From positions 1 to 42,279 of IMG/VR virus record IMGVR_UViG_3300022859_000008: DNA of 42,279 nt; one strand, given 5' to 3'. Below are positions 3,535-26,054 of this stretch, piece after piece. The notes under the pieces were generated by a model. The model made no database searches. It worked only from the letters and a program-made list of their open reading frames with translations, and was not told where the DNA came from. This DNA is from a virus. The translations under genes were made by a program, and so were the position numbers. The first letter of the stretch is position 1; each line of letters starts with the position of its first letter.

Positions 3535-3625
3535 ACCCTTTTCTTTCGAGGCCATTTCTTGTAGTGTGGGGACATCCCTGACAGCTGCATTGTGCGGCTG
3601 ACACTTACCCCGACAGGAGATTCCA

Positions 3626-3859
3626 ATGGGTACGACTTCATTTTCTGGACCAGTAAACTCGGCCAACGGCTTCGTAGGCGACATCACAGGTGATGTGACT
3701 GGCGACGTCACAGGCGCAGTTACAGCCACAACAGTAACAGCCACAGGCGCTCTTACCGCAACAGCTACAGACAACGTCTTCGTTGTCCCGACATCGGACC
3801 CTAGCGTTGCTGGTGCTCTCTGGAATGATGGCGGAACGCTTTCTGTCTCCGCAGGTTAA
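3626..3859 (+). CDS. Small Gly/Thr/Val-repeat structural protein
   Basis: A 77-residue protein with a strong AGGAG ribosome site. Residues 17-45 are a run of short repeats of the GDVTG type followed by TATTVTATG-like units, a pattern common in beta-rich virion proteins. The C-terminus (DPSVAGALWNDGGTLSVSAG) resembles the end of head-fibre or tail-fibre-associated proteins of marine phages. The role is inferred to be structural; no specific family is recognised. Confidence 0.6.
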   Translation: MGTTSFSGPVNSANGFVGDITGDVTGDVTGAVTATTVTATGALTATATDNVFVVPTSDPSVAGALWNDGGTLSVSAG

Positions 3860-23068: not shown

Positions 23069-23274
23069 TCCGCCTTGAACTTTATGTCGATCCCGACGCC
23101 GCCAAACAGGATGACGGCGTCCTCTGCAACCTGGTGCATCTGTTCAAAAACTTCCTCGTCGTCCACTGCGGCGGCGAGGTTGAGAGCTGCATCGATGAGG
23201 GTCAGGAACGCCTCCACCTGATCCTCGTGCATCTGCTCAAATCCCAGTGTCTTGATGTCCGCATTAAAGCTCAT
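23062..23274 (-). CDS. Small acidic protein at the end of the replication operon
   Basis: A 70-residue acidic helical protein (EDQVEAFLTLIDAALNLAAA, FEQMHQVAEDAVILFGG). Its ATG overlaps the polymerase stop (ATGA), so it is translationally coupled to the polymerase. It has no recognisable family. The position suggests a polymerase accessory or regulator, but this is speculative. Its last 7 bases overlap the end of the plus-strand ejection gene. Confidence 0.6.
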   Translation of the reverse strand: MSFNADIKTLGFEQMHEDQVEAFLTLIDAALNLAAAVDDEEVFEQMHQVAEDAVILFGGVGIDIKFKADY

Positions 23275-26054
23275 TCGACTTCTCCCCAGTTATTAGGTAG
23301 CCCACGCAGGGCAGGAATATCATCGTCAACCTTGGACGGGATTTTCAAAGGAAGCCCTGTCTCCATGATCTCCTTTATCTTAGCAGACTGAGCCTCGTTT
23401 TCCACGGAAAAACAAAGTTCATCGTGAACTGTCAGCATCGGCACCAGACCCTCGGCGAAGCAGTCAGCCATCGCCTTCTTGGTTTGGTCGGCCGCCGACC
23501 CTTGGATCAACTTGTTTAAGGCCTTGTAAGTAAAGGCTCTTTTCAGAGAACCGCCGTACTCCTTCTTGGCTTCTTCCAACGGCAGAGGCTTGTTGTAACC
23601 AAACGAGGTCGGCTCCCAAAGATGGAACCGGCACTTGCGGCCGAGGATCGTGCGGATCTGTCCGTGCTTCTCGCCTTGCGCACTGGCTACCGCGGCCAGC
23701 TGTTTAACGAACGGAACTTTGTCGCGATGCTCTTCGATGATTGACTTCGCCTCTTGGTCGGTGACGCCCAGCTGTGCAGCAAGCTTGCCTACGCCCATGC
23801 CGTACATGATGCCGAGGTTCACCACCTTTGCTTGCTTGCGAGTGATACCCGCAATGTCCGCAACCATCTGGTGCAGGTCGACGTCACCCTTGTGATACTC
23901 CTCAACGATGGTGTCCACCACAGGGCTGCGCATATGGTCTGGCATGGATGCTGCGAAGTGAACCAGCAACCGTGGCTCTTGGCTCGAGTAGTCAAACGAA
24001 CCCCACATCTGCCCATCTTCTGGTATGAAGAGACCACGGATCAGCTTCTTGATCCCCGGATCACGGGCCGGGATTTGTTGAAGATTGGGGTTTGAACTAC
24101 TATTATGGTGAACGAGACCGTGGGCTATGTAGCTGTGGTCGGTCTCGACTTCGATGTCCCAGACCTGTGCAACTCCCAGAGGCTCAATTTCCTCAACGGT
24201 GACCGAGAATGAAGAGAACGATGTCCCTCCGGTGTCACGAGTGCCAGATTGTCTGGGGAGTTGTCCGCTCGATCCTCGTTGATGTGGTGAACATGCATTC
24301 CCTCTGGCACTTCCGTCAGGCCAAGCGTCTGCGCCATAACCACTTGATGCTCGTAGACGTGTTTCGACATAGGTCTCCCCGTGTACCAGCTCGGTTTCAG
24401 TACAAGAATGTACCCGTGTGGGTCGCAGAACAGTCGCCCCTTGTGGTTGTGGTGCTTGCTGCCAGTCTTCCCCTTCATAGGGTTCATTGAACCGATCTTC
24501 GATCGAGAGTACCGTAGAGCCTGCTCCTCTTTGAGCTTCTCCGGCGGAAGCACGCGACGAACCATCTCCTGCGCTGTGTGAAAGGTAATGGACAGTGCTT
24601 TGGCCACTTCCTTGAGAGTTGGTTTCTCCTGCGCCTGATACAAGGCCACGGCTTTTTGGCATAACTCCTCGTCCGCCAAATGTTTCTTTGAAATCGACAC
24701 CTGTTACCTCCTGTCCAACTGTAAGGTCTCCAACGCTCTTCCACCCAGATGCTGTGAAGACACGATGGTTTCGGGTACATTTTATAACACTACCAGAAGA
24801 TACCCGAAGTGCAACCATTTCTTCTTCACCCTTGTATATAAGGTGACGAATAGGCTGAAGGCGACCGAGGTGTGTGATTGCATAATCACTTCGAGGTTTG
24901 ATCTCTACGATAGGCACAGGCCCACGCTGGGTTTCGATCAAGGTGTCTGCTGACACACAGAACCGACCAGTCACTGTGCCACCGTCATCGGAGCGCAGCT
25001 GGTGAAATTCTGTATGAATACGGCCGTTGTGTGCGTGGCGCAGGATACTGTCGATAAAAGTGCTGTCAGCTTTGTCAAACTCGCGCAAGCGTACGATCTG
25101 CTGGCACACCTCATGTGGGTGGGCATTCAGATACTGCTTTGTAAACGAGGCGGCGCCAGCTTCTGTCTTGGGATACTGCAGGTTCAGGGACTCGAACACC
25201 TTCCGCACGCTGCCCGCGGCCCACGGTTCAATGGCCACGCCTGTCTTGTGCTTGATGTCGTCCTTCAGTTCTTGGACCTTGAGCTTGAGACCCTGCTTGG
25301 CGATGTCCGCTTTGTCGATATCCACACGCACGCCGTTGGCCCGCATCTTCACCATCAGCGGGATGAGAGATGTCTCCAGATCAAAAATGTGTGTCAGCTC
25401 CTGAGATGTGATCTCTGTCTTCAAGCGGTCCCAAAGCTTCAGCGTCATGAGCGCATCCTGCTCGGCGTACGCTCCGACATACGACGGCGGCAGCCGCCAC
25501 ATATCTGCCTTGGGGTCAATGCCCCAGTCCTTGGCCGCAGCGCGCAGCATCTTCTCGTCCTTGCGCATATCGATGTAGTCGCGGCCTAGGTTGTTCAGGC
25601 TGTATGACCAGCGGTTCTCGTCGATCACAGGGGCGGCCACCATGGTGTCGATGATCCGACCTTGGACCTCGACCCCTTCAGCAAGCAGCCAGCCAGTATC
25701 GTAGGTCGCGTTGTGCATCAGCTTGTCAATGTGCGGCGTAGCCATCTGTTTGCGCAGCCACTTCAGTGTCATCTTGGGATCCATGTTGTGTCCGTTCTCG
25801 TGACGGATCGGGAAATACCAAGCGTTGTCGCCCGCAGCTACAGCAATGCCAACGACAAACCCGTCCTTGCGTGCCCAGCCTGGGCCCATGGTCGTGAGGT
25901 TCGGGTCGCAGGTCTCGAGGTCGATCGCGATCTGAGGATACTTTGTCAGGTCAGGGAACTCTGGTGGGATGTTCCAATCAGGCTCGAGCTTCTCACCCAA
26001 GTCCATGCGGTCCAGAAAGGAGATAGTGCTCTTGTCTTTACGGTCTCTTGCCAT
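23271..26054 (-). CDS. polA: Family A DNA polymerase with 3'-5' exonuclease, interrupted by an intein
   Basis: A 927-codon gene giving a 641-residue polymerase after removal of a 286-residue intein. The N-terminal proofreading domain has Exo I D45/E47 (IAIDLETCD), Exo II N115/D119 and Exo III Y196/D200. After the splice junction TGRF/SSSNPNLQQIP come motif A (FDYSSQEPR), motif B (RKQAKVVNLGIMYG) and motif C (VHDE). All key residues are present, so the spliced enzyme should replicate the phage genome and proofread. It starts 5 bases after the upstream gene and is coupled to the 70-residue gene downstream. The intein interrupts the region just before motif A, so activity should depend on splicing. 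Confidence 0.93.
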   Translation of the reverse strand: MARDRKDKSTISFLDRMDLGEKLEPDWNIPPEFPDLTKYPQIAIDLETCDPNLTTMGPGWARKDGFVVGIAVAAGDNAWYFPIRHENGHNMDPKMTLKWLRKQMATPHIDKLMHNATYDTGWLLAEGVEVQGRIIDTMVAAPVIDENRWSYSLNNLGRDYIDMRKDEKMLRAAAKDWGIDPKADMWRLPPSYVGAYAEQDALMTLKLWDRLKTEITSQELTHIFDLETSLIPLMVKMRANGVRVDIDKADIAKQGLKLKVQELKDDIKHKTGVAIEPWAAGSVRKVFESLNLQYPKTEAGAASFTKQYLNAHPHEVCQQIVRLREFDKADSTFIDSILRHAHNGRIHTEFHQLRSDDGGTVTGRFCVSADTLIETQRGPVPIVEIKPRSDYAITHLGRLQPIRHLIYKGEEEMVALRVSSGSVIKCTRNHRVFTASGWKSVGDLTVGQEVTGVDFKETFGGRGVMPKSRGLVSGAGETNSQGSGQSTVHYLSHSAGDGSSRASAGEAQRGAGSTVLSIEDRFNEPYEGEDWQQAPQPQGATVLRPTRVHSCTETELVHGETYVETRLRASSGYGADAWPDGSARGNACSPHQRGSSGQLPRQSGTRDTGGTSFSSFSVTVEEIEPLGVAQVWDIEVETDHSYIAHGLVHHNSSSNPNLQQIPARDPGIKKLIRGLFIPEDGQMWGSFDYSSQEPRLLVHFAASMPDHMRSPVVDTIVEEYHKGDVDLHQMVADIAGITRKQAKVVNLGIMYGMGVGKLAAQLGVTDQEAKSIIEEHRDKVPFVKQLAAVASAQGEKHGQIRTILGRKCRFHLWEPTSFGYNKPLPLEEAKKEYGGSLKRAFTYKALNKLIQGSAADQTKKAMADCFAEGLVPMLTVHDELCFSVENEAQSAKIKEIMETGLPLKIPSKVDDDIPALRGLPNNWGEVE
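24125..24700 (-). CDS. HNH homing endonuclease nested out of frame inside the intein
   Basis: A 191-codon gene on the same strand as the polymerase, one base out of frame. Residues 28-50 look like a helix-turn-helix (LKEVAKALSITFHTAQEMV), residues 62-85 resemble a NUMOD-type DNA-binding stretch, and residues 95-164 form a complete HNH domain: H118 (VYEHQVVMAQ), H138/H139 (MHVHHINED), N147, N151 and H160/H164. It starts with GTG at 24700 behind a perfect AGGAGGT with 5-base spacing. The domain ends at residue 164, just where intein splicing sequence resumes; its last 27 residues are an out-of-frame reading of intein block F. It would cut an intein-free polymerase allele and drive spread of the element. 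Confidence 0.85.
   Translation of the reverse strand: MSISKKHLADEELCQKAVALYQAQEKPTLKEVAKALSITFHTAQEMVRRVLPPEKLKEEQALRYSRSKIGSMNPMKGKTGSKHHNHKGRLFCDPHGYILVLKPSWYTGRPMSKHVYEHQVVMAQTLGLTEVPEGMHVHHINEDRADNSPDNLALVTPEGHRSLHSRSPLRKLSLWELHRSGTSKSRPTTAT
24706..24712 (-). promoter_or_regulatory. Shine-Dalgarno site for the nested endonuclease
   Basis: The minus strand reads AGGAGGT, then AACAG, then GTG. This perfect anti-16S match lies within intein codons for Gln-Glu-Val and decides the start of the nested gene at 24700. Confidence 0.85.

Follow-up and report, generated by a model that had tools for sequence, protein, structure and literature searches.

The DNA analysed here, referred to as the window, is the whole of a 42,279-nucleotide (nt) stretch from a virus (IMG/VR record IMGVR_UViG_3300022859_000008). 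The element in question is an intein that interrupts its family A DNA polymerase gene and has a second gene, for an HNH homing endonuclease, nested inside it on the same strand but offset by one base (+1) from the intein reading frame. The features concerned are the following (aa, amino acids; AF2, AlphaFold2; pLDDT, predicted local distance difference test).

23271-26054, minus strand: family A DNA polymerase precursor, 927 aa, interrupted by the intein (Pfam DNA_pol_A 2e-50, DNA_pol_A_exo1 8e-15)
24102-24959, minus strand: intein of 286 codons, from Cys1 to HHN and then Ser+1, within the motif TGRF^SSSNPNLQQIP (profiles and alignment)
24702-24959, minus strand: N-terminal splicing region, intein residues 1-86, single-coded (78-84% aa identity among four alleles)
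24706-24712, minus strand: AGGAGGT Shine-Dalgarno sequence of the nested gene, within the N-terminal splicing region and 5 nt before the GTG
24125-24700, minus strand: nested HNH homing endonuclease gene, 191 aa, GTG start, +1 relative to the intein frame (HNH_3 and phrog_7545 profiles)
24209-24700, minus strand: dual-coded core, in which HNH residues 1-164 correspond to intein residues 87-250; intein frame open and predicted to be disordered
24551-24688, minus strand: predicted N-terminal helix-turn-helix, HNH residues 5-50 (AF2 helices 5-9, 11-21, 29-35 and 40-50, pLDDT about 80)
24224-24355, minus strand: HNH_3 nuclease motif, HNH residues 116-159 (Pfam PF13392, 5e-12)
24102-24209, minus strand: C-terminal splicing region, intein residues 251-286, overlapped in part by the HNH tail (86-92% aa identity among the alleles; TIGR01443)
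24076-24101, minus strand: presumed target region in the C-extein (introns of related HNH enzymes at +15/+21 and the I-PfoP3I nick; use as a target would follow from these)

Polymerase and intein together form one uninterrupted 927-codon frame that is continuous with both exteins; the two halves do not lie on separate genes. An earlier note on this DNA, made from the letters alone, had described a polymerase intein with a full set of splicing residues, and Cys1, the block B TRNH (TxxH), the terminal HHN and Ser+1 are indeed all present, with matches above cut-off to Pfam Intein_splicing (PF14890, 1.5e-9) and, for both ends, to TIGR01445/TIGR01443 (NCBIfam). Solved RecA, DnaB and DnaX inteins align with its N- and C-terminal splicing regions. 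The middle section gave no endonuclease match in the intein frame in a profile search, the HNH_3 match lying in the +1 frame alone, just as the note had read it. In an AF2 model built on the four-allele alignment, Hint-like strands appear at intein residues 1-90 and 251-286, those of the N-terminal splicing region with low-to-moderate confidence, and residues 91-249 are of very low confidence and without structure; because the mean pLDDT is 39, only this contrast between strands and no structure has been used. The simplest reading of the model is that the dual-coded stretch, in the intein frame, would form a disordered loop in the position that the endonuclease domain takes in other inteins. 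The hydropathy of the intein frame, set against codon permutations, shows no consistent shift, so there is no evidence of selection on its composition.

The nested 191-aa protein matches phrog_7545 at 1e-26, and its HNH residues H118, H138, H139 and N151 are invariant across the four alleles. The gene is thus as first described, with a helix-turn-helix, these catalytic motifs and its own AGGAGGT five bases before a GTG. All four alleles retain AGGAG or AGGAGG (5-6 bases of AGGAGG) before the nested GTG, and the codons for Gly-Gln-Glu of the intein supply these bases. A profile search of the PDB with the nested HNH returned no match.

Relatives carrying the same element at the same site (site A) were found on six IMG/VR contigs (L001-L006) which, with the window, make up four allele groups: the window; L001; L002, L003, L004 and L006; and L005. 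The four diverged alleles are all exactly 858 bp long. Both frames are open in five of the six relatives; in L006, one single-base indel in the overlap disrupts both. When the window's HNH protein was held fixed and its own codons were permuted, a mean of 5.9 stops appeared in the intein frame, which was open in only 9 of 20000 trials, and with phage codon usage it was never open (0/20000), in agreement with the earlier suggestion that such an open frame is improbable by chance. The same shuffles for the other alleles left the intein frame open in 3 (L001), 129 (L002) and 13 (L005) of 20000 trials. Over the site A alleles, 4-7 stops are expected under HNH codon shuffling and none is observed; in eleven related HNH genes lying outside inteins, the corresponding frame holds 10-25. 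The overlap core is 66-76% identical among alleles at the aa level in the HNH frame vs 33-45% in the intein frame, and differences there number about 0.5 per codon at the position that is first in the intein frame and third in the HNH frame, and 0.15-0.26 at the other positions, whereas the single-coded N-terminal part shows the usual pattern, with differences at intein position 3. From the two identities and the concentration of changes at the HNH third position it follows that the intein frame is kept open here without being conserved as protein: amino acid constraint in the overlap acts on the HNH frame, and the intein frame is held free of stops and nothing more. The note's proposal that both frames are under constraint therefore stands as regards stop avoidance and fails as regards the amino acids of the intein frame, which are not conserved as those of the HNH are.

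The arrangement is far from confined to this intein. In all, 27 inteins with an out-of-frame endonuclease have been tabulated, at several phage polA sites and in one helicase; they involve two HNH families and one LAGLIDADG enzyme, at offsets of +1 and +2, and in all 27 the intein frame has no stops, vs 3-23 in the one remaining frame. The L001 polymerase has a second, different intein (L001:5138-6100, site B) with a nested +1 HNH gene of an unrelated family (L001:5283-6092), and all 13 of the IMG/VR loci found for this site B HNH in an alignment scan are nested alike. Most site B cases have GAGG or AGGAGG nine bases before an ATG. Differences at HNH positions 1, 2 and 3 in the site B family are 0.28, 0.25 and 0.47, with an identity of 0.63 in the HNH frame vs 0.44 in the intein frame. 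There was no significant similarity between the HNH proteins of sites A and B, so no endonuclease has been shared recently between the two intein types of L001. Among isolated phages, +1 HNH genes lie in polymerase inteins of APSE-1, Caulobacter GB2A, Shewanella SFCi1, Gardnerella AB1 and Streptococcus Javan255/Javan101, and +2 HNH genes in those of Salmonella SE2, EBPR siphovirus 2, Pseudomonas MR14 and Vibrio 97.13; the helicase intein of Xanthomonas FoX3 holds a LAGLIDADG_2 enzyme (9e-22) at +2. A near-identical version of the SE2 element occurs in 163 phage records (at least 80% of the length; openness checked in SE2 alone). The sites, offsets and endonuclease families represented are in several instances independent of one another.

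At the +1 offset, the sole way to make an intein-frame stop is a T-ending HNH codon before AA, AG or GA. Over 15 pooled +1 cases, T-ending codons occupy 0 of 574 such positions vs 503 of 1689 elsewhere (p about 1e-74, a nominal value and not one from 15 independent tests, since the sequences are related).

Searches beyond these cases returned little. Bacterial genomes gave only distant intein matches and no nested homolog of the window intein, alignment-based viral scans gave no additional alleles of the site A element, and the nested LAGLIDADG gene of FoX3 had no IMG/VR relative beyond the phage's own record. None of the polA inteins encountered in the analysis has an in-frame HNH; in-frame HNH inteins do exist in other phage genes, and the HNH-containing intein in the dCTP deaminase of phage CL131 has been shown to excise itself (PMC6293099). 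Two shortened inteins at the same polA site, in Ruminococcus phage NatCom_29429 (L126:1501-1920) and Streptococcus phage Javan422 (L128), look like stages of loss that follow decay of the endonuclease: one has no nested open reading frame (ORF), and in the other no more than the N-terminal end of the HNH survives. The nested enzyme of APSE-1 also has HNH relatives, about 42% identical, on 156 plasmid records (e.g. NZ_CP126951, 79395-79949), where such annotations as were seen read hypothetical protein.

The nearest relatives of the window HNH among phage records are the HNH enzymes of polA group I introns. Twelve of its relatives were fetched with their flanks, and eleven lie in or between DNA polymerase gene fragments or adjoin a polA motif; the neighbours of the twelfth, RCIP0039, are unannotated. 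Where the motif could be located, the introns split TGRLSSSNPNLQNIP, 15 or 21 nt downstream of the point at which the window intein interrupts TGRF^SSSNPNLQQIP, the positions for PhAPEC7 and MJW being less exact. The Pf-WMP3 intron, for which exon ends have been published, lies 15 nt from the intein site. Its enzyme, I-PfoP3I, is 38% identical to the window HNH over 139 aa, and nicks the intron-free polymerase gene 4 nt before the intron point (PMC3428280). By its sequence, the window HNH is homologous to these polA intron enzymes (phrog_7545, I-PfoP3I-like) and has the HNH catalytic residues. Nested and intron HNHs fall into separate groups joined by a long branch, which gives no direction of transfer. 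The intein HNH and the intron HNHs would then have a common target neighbourhood, a situation that resembles the collaborative homing of an endonuclease and an intron (PMC3984707). At Rfam gathering thresholds no intron family was detected in the window, a weak negative, because the known polA introns in L101-L105 were likewise missed.

As to mobility, the site is empty in all 80 of the closest uninterrupted polymerases located in IMG/VR, which are up to 94% identical to that of the window. At the nt level, L002/L004 and L003/L006 have inteins that are 99.9-100% identical (for L006, the first 480 nt were compared), whereas the adjoining N-terminal halves of their polymerases have only 72% aa identity; L003 and L006 come from separate metagenomes and have a common junction type. 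Near-identical inteins thus sit in diverged polymerases, which indicates recent horizontal transfer of the intein, presumably by homing. In the N-extein of L006, the last 15 nt match L002 and the remainder matches L003, as a short co-conversion tract would.

Two further observations concern the window itself. Against NCBIfam phage_DpoZ_1, the profile for aminoadenine-incorporating polymerases, its polymerase reaches 309 bits, short of the cut-off of 500, and the Rfam motif Mu-gpT-DE was matched at 63 bits at 3576-3628 on the plus strand, 3' of the gene for a likely major head protein.

Taken together, these results make it very probable that the element is a mobile intein and that the homing endonuclease inside it is encoded out of frame and translated on its own. 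In the polymerase-frame product, about 160 residues of disordered but tolerated loop would separate the two halves of a Hint domain; with its splicing residues intact, the intein would excise and join the polymerase. The same mRNA, read one base over from the internal AGGAGGT and GTG, would yield a separate 191-aa endonuclease with a helix-turn-helix and an HNH domain, derived from the lineage of the polA group I intron endonucleases. The probable substrate of this enzyme is the conserved stretch of intein-free polymerase genes that encodes TGR-SSSNPNLQ-IP, which it would nick or cut, and repair would then copy the intein into the cut allele, as the shared target neighbourhood and the recent transfer suggest. 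Selection would act on the HNH through its amino acids and on the intein frame through avoidance of stops.

Several points weigh against this picture. The sequences show the anatomy, the two open frames, the pattern of selection, the recurrence and the recent transfer, but splicing of the polymerase, production of the HNH, its target and homing are all inferred. The minimal site of I-PfoP3I (-3 to +11 of the intron site) would lie wholly downstream of the intein point, and if the window enzyme has kept such a site, the sparing of intein-bearing alleles is unexplained. A clear Shine-Dalgarno is absent before the nested gene in several +2 cases. The AF2 models, built from four-sequence alignments, are of low confidence (mean pLDDT 39 for the intein and 54 for the other), and a Foldseek search of the PDB with the HNH model found nothing significant (best E 0.09), an uninformative result because that model is weak.

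Of the other explanations, the one that survives best is that the HNH no longer homes the window intein and acts instead against competing phages or at some other site. HNH enzymes of introns, e.g. I-HmuI, can cut other phages and intron-plus alleles (PMC3428280), and the intein may leave the presumed target intact; the presence and absence of the intein among close relatives and its recent transfer, however, point to active mobility and make this unlikely. The element might also be a non-splicing insertion kept as a loop of the polymerase, as has been proposed for the methylase insertion of ShiLan, a published out-of-frame HNH insertion with no splicing domain. We regard this as improbable, given that the splicing blocks are conserved (78-92% aa) with Cys1, TxxH, HHN and Ser+1, in contrast to ShiLan, and that the site is in a conserved motif of a probably essential enzyme. 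There is similarly little to be said for programmed ribosomal frameshifting in place of internal initiation, with the endonuclease produced joined to the intein: a -1 shift would reach the +2 frame, in which some cases have no clear Shine-Dalgarno, but no -1 slippery heptamer was found in the intein frame before the nested start in the eight cases checked (the window, L001, L002, L005, SE2, ESV2, MR14 and V97.13), and site A and most site B cases have both a Shine-Dalgarno and a start codon. That chance or base composition accounts for the open intein frame, with only the HNH gene mattering, is very improbable; stops are fewer in GC-rich DNA, and a few high-GC +2 cases are unremarkable taken singly (MR14 544/5000, V97.13 1070/5000), but against this stand the stop-free intein frames of all 27 cases, the complete avoidance of T at the 574 positions, the 10-25 stops of the intron homologs, and the reliance of the C-terminal half of the polymerase on the intein frame. 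Finally, a sequencing or assembly error, in which a pair of compensating indels displaced an in-frame HNH (the outcome that would have undone the earlier note), can be dismissed despite the indel in L006, because the same offset recurs in independent assemblies and isolated phages, at exactly 858 bp in four diverged alleles, and the nested architecture is found again in the isolated phages APSE-1, SE2, SFCi1, GB2A, Javan255 and AB1, as well as near-identically in the 163 phage records; the recurrence of the offset in homologous inteins was among the checks that the note had proposed.

Compared with known systems, the element is like canonical large inteins in having a Hint domain, an endonuclease between the N and C splicing blocks, and mobility; in those the endonuclease is in frame, whereas here it is out of frame and, it is proposed, translated separately, so that the intein product is without one. 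Dassa et al., cited in PMC3653736, are said to have described, in 2009, fractured genes with split inteins and a free-standing endonuclease between the halves. The window resembles these in that the endonuclease gene is separate and lies between halves of the splicing domain, and differs in that the intein is continuous, would splice in cis, and is overlapped by the endonuclease. With the polA group I intron HNHs of the I-PfoP3I type it has in common a homologous HNH, the same gene, and insertion sites 15-21 nt apart (PMC3428280), but their home is a self-splicing intron with no second coding frame, and that of the window HNH is an intein. The nearest published precedent, which is not an intein, is the ShiLan/Pacc40 elements, in which an out-of-frame HNH lies in an open insertion in mycobacteriophage methylases, and which their authors conclude to be neither intein nor intron; the out-of-frame HNH, the open host frame and the mobility between phages are alike, but those elements have no splicing domain, no ribosome-binding site was found, and the host gene is non-essential, in contrast to the intein, polymerase and internal Shine-Dalgarno of the window (PMC11855218). 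P46 of APSE-1, nested in P45 (NC_000935), is likewise an HNH within an intein-bearing polymerase gene at a +1 offset; it exists as annotation only, with no discussion of an overlapping intein endonuclease found in searchable papers. Some Jerseyvirus polymerases are annotated as intein-containing. A full-text literature search found no description of an out-of-frame endonuclease in a genuine intein; subscription literature and preprints lie outside that search, so priority is unsettled.

How such an overlap could evolve is suggested by the genetic code. At the +1 offset, the T that every intein-frame stop requires falls at the HNH third codon position, where a change from T to C is always silent, and all 192 of the +1 stops in the eleven non-nested HNH genes can be removed by one synonymous change (at +2, a few cannot). 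An endonuclease could therefore be overprinted on an intein with no change in its protein. Before the stops had been purged, survival could have come from trans-splicing. The DE^C site at which the open FoX3 intein interrupts its helicase is also occupied in phages Ymer (Pectobacterium) and STP4-a (Salmonella), there by fractured inteins, and in both the N and C intein halves are in one frame with the middle ORF at +2, as in nested FoX3; a link between the nested arrangement and fractured split inteins is thus plausible. The earlier note had called the arrangement an overlapping-gene intermediate; it was right about the out-of-frame gene in an intact intein, but "intermediate" understates what is a recurrent and stable arrangement, found with several families and two offsets. 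On balance we favor the view that this is a third, widespread architecture of phage inteins besides the in-frame and the split: dual-coded, with an unrelated endonuclease of any family overprinted, of several origins, with silent purging of stops at +1, and with fractured split inteins as perhaps a precursor or a state of decay.

Two arrangements of intein endonucleases have so far been described, a domain within the intein and a free gene lying between the halves of a split one. In the overlap described here, the splicing scaffold and the mobility enzyme occupy one stretch in different frames, an arrangement that is recurrent and mostly unannotated in well-studied phages, and surveys for endonucleases in the intein frame will score such dual-coded inteins as endonuclease-free. 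With the overlap, endonuclease dosage is no longer tied to splicing, and a route opens between split and continuous inteins. The case illustrates how one gene can be the target both of a lineage of intron endonucleases and of an intein. It also provides a clean natural system for the evolution of overlapping genes, in which one of the two frames is constrained only to lack stops.

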